From: Candidatus Bathyarchaeota archaeon
GTDB taxonomy: Archaea > Thermoproteota > Bathyarchaeia > Bathyarchaeales > Bathycorpusculaceae
DNA: 64,000 nucleotides
Assembly: GCA_003151735.1 (NCBI GenBank)
Contig: PLYI01000087.1
Span: forward strand, 1-64,000
Direction: 5' to 3'
The notes beneath the pieces were generated by a model. It ran no database searches, was not told the origin of the DNA, and saw nothing but the letters and a program-made list of their open reading frames with translations. Positions within the stretch are counted from its first letter, which is position 1, and the number at the start of each line of letters is the position of its first letter. Below, in pieces: positions 44,138 through 64,000 of the stretch. Made by a program: the position numbers and the translations under genes.

Positions 44138-45361
44138 ATGGTTGAAAACGTTAAAGAACTTCTCAAACTCCACGAAGGCATAACACATGAGGTTTACTTA
44201 GACAACGAAAACAGCTGCATTGTACCCCAAGAAGTAGTGGCTGCTATGCTTCCCTACTTTAATAAGACAGCCTACGGCAACCCCACGCTAACACACAAGC
44301 CCGGGTGGGAAGCATTTGAAGTCATAATGAACAGCTTCCAAAAAATCAGCAGGTATATAGGCGCAAAAATCCTTGAAGAAATCACCTTTACCCCAAGTGA
44401 AACCGAAGCTAACAACCTCGCCATCATGGGCTCATGTTTTGCACAGAAAAGCAGGGGCAAAAAAATCGTAGTTTCAGAAATCGAACCCGTCAACGTGCTG
44501 CAAGTAGCGGAGTTAATGGGAAAATTCGGTTTCTCAACCACCAAAATCCCAGTTGACCACGAAGGATTCATTGACCTTGAAAAACTCAAAGAAGCAGTTG
44601 ACAACGAAACCGTTTTAGTTAGCATCTCAGCTGTAAACAATGAGCTTGGCACTATTCAGCCGATTAAAGAAGCTGTGGATATTGTTAAAGCCAAAAACTC
44701 CCACACCCTCTTCCATACTGATGCATCTGACGCCTACGGCAGAATCCCGCTAAACGTGCAAGATCTAAAGGTGGATTTAGCTACAGTGAGCAGCTACAAG
44801 ATTCAGGGTCCAAGAGGCATGGGAGCGATGTACCTAAAGGACGGCGTAAACATGGAGCGAATCCTCGAAGGTCAAATCGGAACCCAAAAACTCTGGCCAG
44901 GCGTAGAAAACACACCTTTAATCGTCGGCTTCACTAAGGCTTCTGAGCTTGCTTTTGAGAATTTTGAAGCAAACACTACAAAAATGCGTACGCTACGCGA
45001 CAAATTAGTTGACGGAATATTCAATGAACTCGGTGACTTGCGTTATAACGGTCCAAAAGGAGACAAACGCAGCCCAGACAACGCCAACATAAGCATCCTT
45101 CGAGCTGAAGGCGAAGCATTAACCATTGAACTTAGCCTCAAAGGCGTCTACGTTTCTAGCGGAAGCGCATGCAGCCGCAGACTATTGCAGCCCAGCCACG
45201 TTCTGATCGCTATTGGACGTATATTCGAGGAAGCACATGGCAGCATACTCATGAAAGTCACCCGCAGTCACACAGAAGAGGATATAGCTTACGTTCTTAG
45301 TGTTTTACCTACAGCTGTCAACCGTATTAGAGGGATAGTTGGCTCAACAGGAGTACATTAG
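44138..45361 (+). CDS. Cysteine desulfurase (NifS/IscS-like)
   Basis: PLP enzyme that takes sulfur from cysteine for Fe-S assembly. The 407-residue protein has VYLDNENSCIVPQEVVAAML, FTPSETEANNLAIMG, the PLP segment TVSSYKIQGPRGMGAMYLK and the active cysteine in VYVSSGSACSRRLLQPS. The His that usually precedes the lysine (HK) is a Tyr here. First gene of a four-gene operon with IscU, SufS-like and a small protein; the next gene starts two bases after its stop. Confidence 0.85.
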   Translation: MVENVKELLKLHEGITHEVYLDNENSCIVPQEVVAAMLPYFNKTAYGNPTLTHKPGWEAFEVIMNSFQKISRYIGAKILEEITFTPSETEANNLAIMGSCFAQKSRGKKIVVSEIEPVNVLQVAELMGKFGFSTTKIPVDHEGFIDLEKLKEAVDNETVLVSISAVNNELGTIQPIKEAVDIVKAKNSHTLFHTDASDAYGRIPLNVQDLKVDLATVSSYKIQGPRGMGAMYLKDGVNMERILEGQIGTQKLWPGVENTPLIVGFTKASELAFENFEANTTKMRTLRDKLVDGIFNELGDLRYNGPKGDKRSPDNANISILRAEGEALTIELSLKGVYVSSGSACSRRLLQPSHVLIAIGRIFEEAHGSILMKVTRSHTEEDIAYVLSVLPTAVNRIRGIVGSTGVH

Positions 45362-45363
45362 AT

Positions 45364-45876
45364 ATGTCACGTATACCCTTACCTTACAACCCAAAAGTCA
45401 TGGATTTATTTCAACACCCCAAGAACCTTGGAAAAATGGAAGATGCCACAGTCGTCGCTGTCGCAGGGAACCCTGCATGCGGAGACATGATAACTTTCTA
45501 CCTAAAAATCGATGAAGCAAAACAAATAATCGAAAAGGCAAGTTTTGAAAGCTACGGATGTGCTGCAAACATTGCAACATCCAGCATCGTCACAGAAATG
45601 GTCAAATGCTTAACTCTAGAAAAAGCGTGGAACGAAATTACTTGGAAGAAAGTTACTGAGGAAATCGGCGGCTTGCCAAACGTCAAATTTCACTGTGGGG
45701 TCCTCGCCGTCGGTGCACTAAAGCGTGCAATAAGACAGTACTTTAAGGAAAAAGGCGTTGCGCCGCCCGCATGGTTGCCAAATGAACATACATTTGAAGA
45801 AAAACAGGCATTAGAGGAAGAGGAACTGGCAAAAACGCTCTCTAAGAGGCTAAAACCTGAGGCAGAAAAAAAATAA
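45364..45876 (+). CDS. iscU: IscU/NifU-type Fe-S scaffold
   Basis: Scaffold on which new Fe-S clusters are built. The 170-residue protein has the three conserved cysteines: AGNPACGDMITFYL, SYGCAANIATSSIVTEM and FHCGVLAVGALKRAI. It lacks C-terminal NifU extensions but ends with a charged tail (EEKQALEEEELAKTL) finishing in an A-run, GAAAAAAAATAA, that also opens the frame of the next gene. Confidence 0.92.
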   Translation: MSRIPLPYNPKVMDLFQHPKNLGKMEDATVVAVAGNPACGDMITFYLKIDEAKQIIEKASFESYGCAANIATSSIVTEMVKCLTLEKAWNEITWKKVTEEIGGLPNVKFHCGVLAVGALKRAIRQYFKEKGVAPPAWLPNEHTFEEKQALEEEELAKTLSKRLKPEAEKK

Positions 45877-45881
45877 TAGAC
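45859..45881 (+). promoter_or_regulatory. iscU-sufS junction: GAGG, eight-A slippery run, stop, non-ATG start
   Basis: GAGG at 45859-45862 is followed by eight As (45866-45873) and the iscU TAA (45874-45876). The SufS frame, one base back, reads AAA AAA ATA ATA GAC. Two uses are possible: initiation at ATA 45873, ten bases after GAGG; or -1 slippage on A-AAA-AAA, which would fuse scaffold and desulfurase. A single missed A in the assembly would give the same fusion. Confidence 0.5.
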
Positions 45882-47111
45882 CAGCAAGCAATCAGGCAAG
45901 ACTTCCCAATCTTAAACAGAAAAATAAATGGCAACCCCCTAATCTATTTTGACAACGCTGCAACCACCCAGAAGCCTGGGCAAGTCATCGACGCCATAAC
46001 TGACTTCTACGAAAACCACAACGCCAACGTGCATAGGGCAGTTCACGCTCTTTCTTTGGAAGCAACCGACCTCTACGAGAAATCAAGGGAGATAATTGCA
46101 AAATTCATCAACGCCAAAAACTCCAGCGAAGTCGTCTTTGTCAGAGGCACAACCGAAGCCATAAACCTGGTCGCGTATTCGTGGGGATTAAACAGCCTCG
46201 GTAAAGGCGATGAAGTTCTTGTTTCGTTAATGGAGCATCACAGCAACATTGTTCCATGGGAAATCACGGCTAAGCTAAGAGGCTTCACAATCAAATACGC
46301 CAAAGTCAACCCTGATGGAACACTTGACTATGATGATTTTGAAAGCAAGCTCTGCAATAAAACAAAGATTGCCTGCCTAAGCCAAGTGTCAAACGTTACA
46401 GGTGTAATCAACGACGTTAAACGCATCGGCAAGGTCGCGCATGATAATGGCGCTTTAATGCTAGTTGACGGCGCCCAATCGGTGCCGCATATGTCCGTGG
46501 ATGTTCAAGACTTGAATATGGATTTTCTTGCGTTTTCAGGGCACAAGATGCTGGGGCCAACAGGCATTGGAGTGCTCTATGGCAAGAAGGAAGTGCTGGA
46601 AAAGATGCCTCCTTTCATGGGGGGCGGCGAAATGATTAGGGAAGTAACCTTCAACCAAGAGGGGAGTCGCTGCGGCGTTTTGTTGAATGATTTGCCATGG
46701 AAGTTTGAGGCGGGTACACCTAATGTCGCTGGAGCAATTGGTTTGGGGGCAGCGGTAAAGTACCTTGAAGGCTTAGGCATGGATAACGTTTTAAGCCATG
46801 AAAAAGCCCTAACGAAGTACGCTGTTGAACGCATGAAAGAATGCAGCAAAGTAACCATTTACGGTCCAAGTAATCTTTCTGAGAAGTTGGGAATCATACC
46901 TTTTGGCGTTAAAGGTTTGTCTTCGCATGACGTGGCTTTATTCTTTGACAATTACGGAGTAATGCTGCGCAGCGGTTTCCATTGTGCTCAACCACTTCAC
47001 GAGCAAGTTCTAAAACTCCAATCTTCAGCGCGAGCAAGCTTCTACATCTACAACACCAAAGAGGAAGTTGACCGCTTCATGGAAGTTTTAAAGGAGTTTG
47101 AGCAACTCTAA
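45873..47111 (+). CDS. sufS: SufS-type cysteine desulfurase with no canonical start codon
   Basis: The 412-codon frame covers the complete SufS fold from its conserved N-terminus (QAIRQDFPILNRKING, IYFDNAATTQKPGQVID) through NVHRAVHALSLEATDLYEKS, VFVRGTTEAINLVAYSWG, AFSGHKMLGPTGIGVLYG (PLP Lys) and the active Cys in LRSGFHCAQPLHEQV. No in-frame ATG, GTG or TTG precedes GTG 46029, which would remove the conserved first 51 residues. The call extends to ATA 45873; see the junction entry for alternatives. It ends overlapping the next ATG by one base. Confidence 0.8.
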   Translation: MIDQQAIRQDFPILNRKINGNPLIYFDNAATTQKPGQVIDAITDFYENHNANVHRAVHALSLEATDLYEKSREIIAKFINAKNSSEVVFVRGTTEAINLVAYSWGLNSLGKGDEVLVSLMEHHSNIVPWEITAKLRGFTIKYAKVNPDGTLDYDDFESKLCNKTKIACLSQVSNVTGVINDVKRIGKVAHDNGALMLVDGAQSVPHMSVDVQDLNMDFLAFSGHKMLGPTGIGVLYGKKEVLEKMPPFMGGGEMIREVTFNQEGSRCGVLLNDLPWKFEAGTPNVAGAIGLGAAVKYLEGLGMDNVLSHEKALTKYAVERMKECSKVTIYGPSNLSEKLGIIPFGVKGLSSHDVALFFDNYGVMLRSGFHCAQPLHEQVLKLQSSARASFYIYNTKEEVDRFMEVLKEFEQL

Positions 47112-47380
47112 TGGTCACCATCGACGACTACGTAGCTCGAATCGAAGGAACCTGCGGAGCAGAAAAAGACGTTATAGTAGTCTTCAAGTACGAAAAAAAA
47201 GATGAAGCAATCGCTAACATCTTAAAAAAAGCCACCTTGAAAAATAAGATTGCCGGAATAATTTTTGAGTTAACTTTCCAAGATGCCTCTTTTCGCGTCT
47301 ACTCGAGCGGCAAAGCCATTTTTCGCAGCATAAAGAACCGAGAAGAACTAAACAAGCTTTTAGCAGGATTACTACTTTAG
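47111..47380 (+). CDS. Small unknown protein of the Fe-S operon
   Basis: An 89-residue protein whose ATG overlaps the sufS stop (TAATG). It has an N-terminal helix with one Cys (RIEGTCGAEKDVIVVFKYE), a charged middle, and a beta-rich centre (IIFELTFQDASFRVY) with a C-terminal helix (REELNKLLAGLL). I do not recognise the family. Its coupling to iscU and sufS points to a cluster-assembly accessory role. Confidence 0.6.
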   Translation: MVTIDDYVARIEGTCGAEKDVIVVFKYEKKDEAIANILKKATLKNKIAGIIFELTFQDASFRVYSSGKAIFRSIKNREELNKLLAGLLL

Positions 47381-63810: not shown

Positions 63811-64000
63811 TTACTCTGCTATTTCTTCTTGATCTTCGAGTTCAGATTCAGTTGCTGAGTTAGCTTGAGCTAACGCAAGTGTGCGTGTTATGTATCCTGC
63901 AGTTTGGTTTCTTACTCGTGTAGTTGCGCCTTTTGTCAATTCGACAACTGCATGTTTGTTTTCGTCAAAGTTAGTTGTGAATTTGCTTGGAAAGCGAGCC
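63811..64000 (-). CDS. rps17e: 30S ribosomal protein S17e, 3' part
   Basis: The frame is open at the window edge, so the 5' end lies outside. The visible 62 residues include FPSKFTTNFDENKHAVVELT and TTRVRNQTAGYITRTLALAQ, matching archaeal S17e, with an acidic tail (ESELEDQEEIAE) ending at TAA 63811-63813. The gene is on the minus strand and precedes the helical protein at 63413. Confidence 0.9.
   Translation of the reverse strand, partial: ARFPSKFTTNFDENKHAVVELTKGATTRVRNQTAGYITRTLALAQANSATESELEDQEEIAE

Follow-up and report, generated by a model that had tools for sequence, protein, structure and literature searches.

Conserved absence of canonical start codons in sufS and hflX points to near-cognate translation initiation in Bathyarchaeota

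Introduction

Among bacterial genes, infC is a case of a weak, autoregulated near-cognate start (AUU). In yeast, near-cognate initiation involves a fidelity factor of the eIF1/aIF1 type, the kind that would act in our cases too, and in chloroplasts editing can act at start codons. For archaea the accepted start codons are AUG, GUG and UUG, an assumption on which gene finders also rely. Among the matches listed in the open-licence literature on archaeal near-cognate starts and infC, there was no report of the cases described here.

The closest described systems come from bacteria, yeast, chloroplasts and Sulfolobus. In bacteria, the near-cognate starts AUU, AUC and AUA are discriminated by IF3 (PMC4611024). 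Our cases resemble these in that an AUH codon stands behind a Shine–Dalgarno-like sequence, is rare and would be subject to a fidelity factor, but they differ in that the organism is an archaeon, with aIF1 rather than IF3, and in that several unrelated genes are involved. In yeast, near-cognate initiation takes place at UUG, ACG and AUU (PMC6898956); the kinds of codon are alike, whereas the genes described here are main coding genes with Shine–Dalgarno-like sequences and include order-wide retention in hflX. The conserved non-AUG start codons of chloroplast genes (PMC9845219) are similar to ours in their retention over evolution and dissimilar in machinery. Finally, the −1 programmed frameshift of the Sulfolobus alpha-L-fucosidase (PMC8211752) offers a precedent of another kind. 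As in that gene, an A-rich run precedes a stop codon in our window (the whole 64,000-nt stretch of DNA that was analyzed), but here there is no conserved slippery site, no stable structure in the window and, at two loci, no iscU upstream.

Results and Discussion

The sufS Reading Frame of the Window Opens without a Canonical Start Codon

The locus under study is on C81, one of the 124 contigs of a draft genome of 3.5 Mb, whose nearest named relatives are Candidatus Bathyarchaeota MAGs. It contains the following features, all on the plus strand.

44138..45361, +, NifS/IscS-type cysteine desulfurase, first gene of the cluster (ORF list; PF00266; TIGR03402, 361.4 bits)
45364..45876, +, iscU/nifU-type scaffold gene, 3′ end GAA AAA AAA TAA (ORF list; PF01592 NifU_N, 133.4 bits)
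45858..45860, +, in-frame TGA closing the sufS frame on its upstream side (sequence reading)
45859..45862, +, Shine–Dalgarno-like GAGG within the iscU tail (sequence; putative role)
45866..45873, +, eight-A run, candidate slippery site (sequence)
45873..45875, +, ATA, putative alternative start, codon −9 (sequence comparison)
45876..45878, +, ATA, putative preferred start, codon −8, overlapping the iscU stop as TAATA (sequence comparison)
45876..47111, +, sufS, from the proposed AUA start to the stop (TIGR01979, 574.9 bits; PF00266)
45876..46028, +, 51 codons 5′ of every ATG, GTG or TTG, containing the conserved N-terminus (sequence, ORF list and comparison of rows)
46029..46031, +, GTG, earliest in-frame canonical start, internal (ORF list)

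The best NCBIfam match of the first desulfurase, TIGR03402, falls short of that profile's cut-off (361.4 against 530.75 bits). Relative to iscU, sufS is read in the −1 frame, which opens at 45861, directly after the TGA at 45858–45860. This frame reads GGC AGA AAA AAA ATA(45873) ATA(45876) GAC CAG CAA GCA ATC AGG CAA GAC TTC CCA ATC, in which the last four codons encode DFPI, the reference point for our codon numbering. ATG, GTG and TTG are all absent before GTG 46029, and a start there would remove 51 codons. These contain the conserved N-terminus, whose loss from such a start the initial annotation had noted. That annotation had also pointed to a GAGG ten bases before ATA 45873 and to the eight-A run at the end of iscU, and both are indeed present; the same GAGG lies 13 bases before ATA 45876.

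The protein read from 45876 is a SufS, matching TIGR01979 with 574.9 bits against a cut-off of 475.1. Because this match fills profile positions 2–399 of 403, the 51 skipped codons belong to SufS. By eye, the translation contains both RSGFHCAQP and SGHKMLGPTG, the catalytic cysteine and PLP lysine motifs of SufS-type desulfurases. At the other end of the gene, the sufS stop overlaps, as TAATG, the ATG of a small ORF (47111–47380, 89 aa) that has no Pfam or NCBIfam match at an E value of 1e-5.

Canonical sufS Starts Are Missing in 24 of 85 Rows

The initial annotation had proposed comparing this junction in related genomes. We assembled a set of 85 rows, the window included: of the 81 family genomes with a match, 79 contributed 81 rows, and 4 more rows came from the wider order. 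Left out were the partial matches in G092 and G106, a second copy at G003:C106, G037 (contig ends) and more distant desulfurases. The absence of a canonical start recurs. A canonical start was present in 61 of the 85 rows, whereas the whole open frame of the other 24, from 24 genomes, contains none upstream of DFPI. Nine of these 24 form one clade. On a maximum-likelihood tree the start-less label requires 8 changes, 5 of them forced by well-supported branches, as compared with a mean of 21 for shuffled labels. As a control, the same reading was applied to 80 named sufS loci, one of which was unusable. Canonical starts were found within 20 codons in 73 of the 79 usable loci, including all four whose record titles name Bathyarchaeota, and 21–29 codons upstream in the other six. 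A canonical start is thus present in every usable locus of the remaining organisms (75/75), within 20 codons in 69 of them and 21–29 codons upstream in 6.

These counts bear on sequencing or assembly error, either a missed A in the run, which would yield a plain fused gene, or an ATA read in place of ATG. The genome is a draft, and errors do occur in the set: in G005 (L060, G005:C132) the iscU and sufS frames are both broken, probably by an assembly or sequencing error, and this row was scored as canonical by its GTG. Yet the window shares the missing canonical start with 23 other rows, and for the group as a whole sequencing error is refuted as the cause of the missing sufS start. For the window itself we regard an error as exceedingly unlikely, and the missed A that the initial annotation had put forward is disfavored.

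Codons −11 to −8 include ATA, ATC or ATT in 23 of the 24 rows that lack a canonical start; the remaining row, L007, has CTG. In 21 of the 24, a GAGG or GGAGG lies in the 24 nt that precede codon −8, and in the other three (L147, L148 and L182) a close upstream GAGG was absent. Near-cognate codons are found where a start would be expected. In the window's genus, GTG or TTG occupies codon −8 in 16 of 31 rows, and in congeners with a canonical start, for example L005 and L010, the distance from GAGG to GTG is 13 bases, while in the family outside the genus ATG stands at codon −9 in 31 of 50 rows, often as TAATG with the iscU stop. Because congeners have GTG or TTG at the position of ATA 45876, and because its overlap with the iscU TAA resembles the TAATG of relatives, we prefer 45876. 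The initial annotation had offered initiation at ATA 45873 as one of its explanations; the comparison supports the use of AUA, with 45876 at least as likely as 45873. Codon −8 is CTA in L017 and L029 and TTT in L013, so a start in these three would sit farther upstream, and sequence comparison cannot fix the choice among the ATN codons.

Over the skipped region, 7 of the 8 start-less pairs that share more than 4 compared codons show more synonymous than nonsynonymous codon differences (7 to 2 for the window and L003); the exception is L017/L025, with 5 synonymous and 6 nonsynonymous differences. The pattern expected of near-cognate initiation, an open frame without a canonical start and a conserved coding sequence ahead of the first such codon, was found on both counts. 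The same data bear on a start at GTG 46029 or another downstream codon, which would produce a SufS without its N-terminus. GTG 46029 is the first canonical start in frame, and three rows, L030, L182 and L190, have a canonical codon 4–7 codons beyond DFPI, so that an internal start would cost them little; these three therefore reveal little about how much N-terminus is required. In the window, however, the conserved DFPI and YFDNAATTQKP both precede GTG 46029, and in start-less rows the first canonical codon comes anywhere from 4 to 110 codons after DFPI. We consider an internal start scarcely credible.

Together, these observations suggest that sufS is most probably translated from the near-cognate AUA at 45876 (or 45873) by the ordinary initiator Met-tRNA. 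Ribosomes that terminate on iscU, or 30S subunits that land on the GAGG in the iscU tail, would be held over the iscU stop codon. Two of the three bases of AUA would pair with the CAU anticodon of the initiator, which could be accepted, at reduced efficiency, despite proofreading by aIF1. Met-SufS would then be made, probably in smaller amounts than IscU.

A Frameshift Fusion of IscU and SufS Is Disfavored

The initial annotation had offered a second explanation, −1 slippage on the A-run just before the iscU stop, which as a programmed event would create an IscU–SufS fusion. Several features fit. In the window, the iscU TAA is immediately preceded by A AAA AAA, and the frame of sufS is −1; eight-A runs are also found in L004 and L013; sufS is in the −1 frame, as a frameshift would give, in every one of the 22 start-less rows where iscU was found upstream; and one study describes −1 frameshifting at an A-rich site for an archaeal alpha-L-fucosidase (PMC8211752). 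However, the canonical rows with an assigned frame (n = 57) use all three frames, with 37 in −1 and 12 and 8 in the others. The slippery heptamer is not conserved among start-less members. The eight-A run is found in only 3 of the 24 rows, L003 has GAA AAA CAA, and a slippery site is absent before the iscU stop in L007 (GAA ACG TAA) and L145 (GAA AAC CAA). Downstream of the A-run in the window, the one sequence folded, there is no stable RNA structure (z of 0.21; 107 of 200 shuffles fold as well), pseudoknots not being covered by this calculation.

In two start-less loci, L168 and L190, no iscU was found upstream of sufS. For L190 (G052, from the same order), the 1.7 kb ahead of sufS showed no iscU, and the junction reads AGGAGGTGA GCG ATA ATA TTT GAT, with the last in-frame stop, a TGA, just upstream. 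In L168 (G071), iscS and iscU are both missing and an iscU-like tail remains that carries GGAGG, the putative sufS ribosome-binding site; here the sequence reads TGA AAG GCA ATC CTA GAT. As assembled, these loci exclude an iscU fusion at those positions, although both are on draft contigs and could be misassembled. Slippage near iscU also cannot account for eS17, rpoK and hflX, described below. Hence, the fusion is disfavored by sequence comparison, and we judge it improbable for the window.

A Putative ACG Start Codon of hflX Is Retained across the Order

The strongest near-cognate case that we found is located outside the window, in hflX (TIGR03156, 294.3 against 216.75 bits).

L233:14572-15834, hflX of G013, outside the window
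L265-L294, L355-L374, L455-L474 and L487-L494, further hflX loci, outside the window

Of the order's 69 hflX loci, 65 have ACG at the start, and 63 of these 65 show an open frame free of canonical codons. In the window's genus, all 30 loci lack a canonical codon up to the start column; 29 have ACG and G021 has ATA ATT, and in 7 of the 30 a stop codon lies immediately 5′ of the ACG. The other genera of the family have ACG in 22 of 22 loci, one of which (G086) carries an in-frame TTG 37 codons upstream. In the order's other families, 14 of 17 loci have ACG, including G056 with an in-frame ATG eight codons upstream, and the remaining three have ATA, ATG and GTG. Outside the order but within the class (n = 11), we found 3 ACG, 2 ATC, 1 locus without a clear start and 5 canonical starts. 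The order-wide ACG count speaks further against sequencing error as a cause.

In most loci the hflX ACG lies inside the end of an upstream gene with a Pfam HTH_3 domain, presumably an MBF1-like gene. Such an overlap could lock the codon in place, as a change from ACG to ATG turns CGA into TGA in the upstream gene. This is possible where the genes overlap but is not the whole reason: with the upstream frame taken as the longest open frame, it ends before the C in 18 loci of the order, and because 14 of these 18 keep ACG (2 have AUA or AUU, 1 ATG and 1 GTG), overlap is not the sole cause. For 61,358 ancestral AUG starts, published reconstructions gave 2 changes to CUG and 1 to AUU, and ACG is absent from that text (PMC5622118), so the hflX pattern is far from usual drift.

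The prevalence of ACG, the commonest near-cognate codon found, raises RNA editing as an explanation. In plastids, ACG start codons are edited C-to-U to AUG, and the same change would restore AUG in hflX. But C-to-U editing cannot turn the AUA, AUC or AUU of sufS or the CUG of eS17 into AUG, and hflX genes that lack ACG may have ATT or ATA (G021, G049). We consider editing very improbable.

No Gross Change Was Found in the Initiator tRNA or the SUI1/aIF1 Family

An altered initiator tRNA was considered as a cause and rejected. The initiator-like tRNA of the window's genome (G000:C27:188177-188274, L482) has a CAU anticodon, an intact GGG/CCC stem and A1:U72, features that we take to be those of an initiator, together with a 22-nt intron after the anticodon; anticodon and GGG/CCC stem are thus unchanged. 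A pattern search for initiator tRNAs in the same genome gave two matches, neither of them called a tRNA by ARAGORN. Loss of aIF1 was likewise not supported as a cause, the SUI1/aIF1 family being found in 52 of 61 genomes. aIF1 is reported to destabilize non-AUG complexes (PMC6237735) or to act against them (PMC6237735, PMC8211752), a point against near-cognate initiation. Sequence searches of the initiator tRNA and the SUI1/aIF1 family thus point to no gross change in machinery.

Putative Near-Cognate Starts in Other Genes

The phenomenon extends past sufS to hflX, rpoK, nfnA, eS17 and a GCS2-family gene, which the initial annotation had not foreseen. Taken together, the conserved lack of canonical starts, the loci that preclude an iscU fusion and these parallel genes suggest that this lineage within the Bathyarchaeota tolerates near-cognate starts (ACG, AUH and CUG) and, in hflX, appears to retain them by selection. 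If ACG, AUA, AUC, AUU and CUG do serve as starts, archaeal start selection would be looser or more regulated than thought, and the starts of near-cognate genes are likely to be misannotated or the genes truncated. Genes of the sufS and hflX type would then be natural test sequences for the parts that aIF1, aIF2 and the Shine–Dalgarno helix play in start-codon stringency.

A further reading, which we hold to be possible but doubtful, is that Bathyarchaeia keep hflX, sufS, eS17, rpoK and nfnA on deliberately weak starts, under selection for weakness, so that their translation would depend on initiation fidelity, through aIF1 or the state of the ribosome. Such control would parallel, in archaea, the AUU switch of infC. 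Its clearest member would be hflX, a gene for a ribosome-associated GTPase that lies behind an MBF1-like gene and has ACG order-wide and in parts of the class.

The additional genes come from a survey of conserved ORFs compared in segments of ten genomes, in which 1666 ORFs were tested and 107 flagged. Most flagged ORFs were by eye conserved noncoding, antisense or ambiguous and were dropped; only sufS, hflX, nfnA, rpoK (flagged in the first pass), eS17 and the GCS2 gene were kept. As the precision of the survey was low, we claim no genome-wide rate. Besides sufS and hflX, the genes kept are as follows.

63814..64000, −, portion of eS17 (rps17e) within the window; putative CTG start at contig position 64050, just beyond the window (sequence)
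L241:9425-9664, also L295-L324, rpoK (RNA polymerase subunit K); species vary between ACG and ATG or TTG
L230:18383-19225, − (L230), also L325-L339, nfnA-like ferredoxin-NADP reductase subunit; ATG and ACG alternate within one genus
L391:15350-16540, GCS2-family (carboxylate-amine ligase-like) gene; ACG start in G077, G078 and G018

The eS17 gene has a CTG start in three of the four genomes seen (G000, G013 and G007) and TTG in G018. In the window's genome this CTG (G000:C81:64050) directly follows TAATAA and is the contig's second near-cognate start. The protein passes Pfam PF00833, and its NCBIfam S17e score of 71.4 is 0.6 bit under the cut-off of 72. For rpoK (n = 30), 4 loci have ACG without a canonical codon in the open frame and 23 have a canonical start; 1 further ACG locus and 2 CTG loci carry an in-frame canonical codon upstream. 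In the rpoK of G013, the frame upstream of the ACG closes at a distance of two codons. Finally, the nfnA set (n = 15) has ACG and no canonical codon in the open frame in 7 loci, ATG in 7, and ACG with an ATG ten codons upstream in 1.
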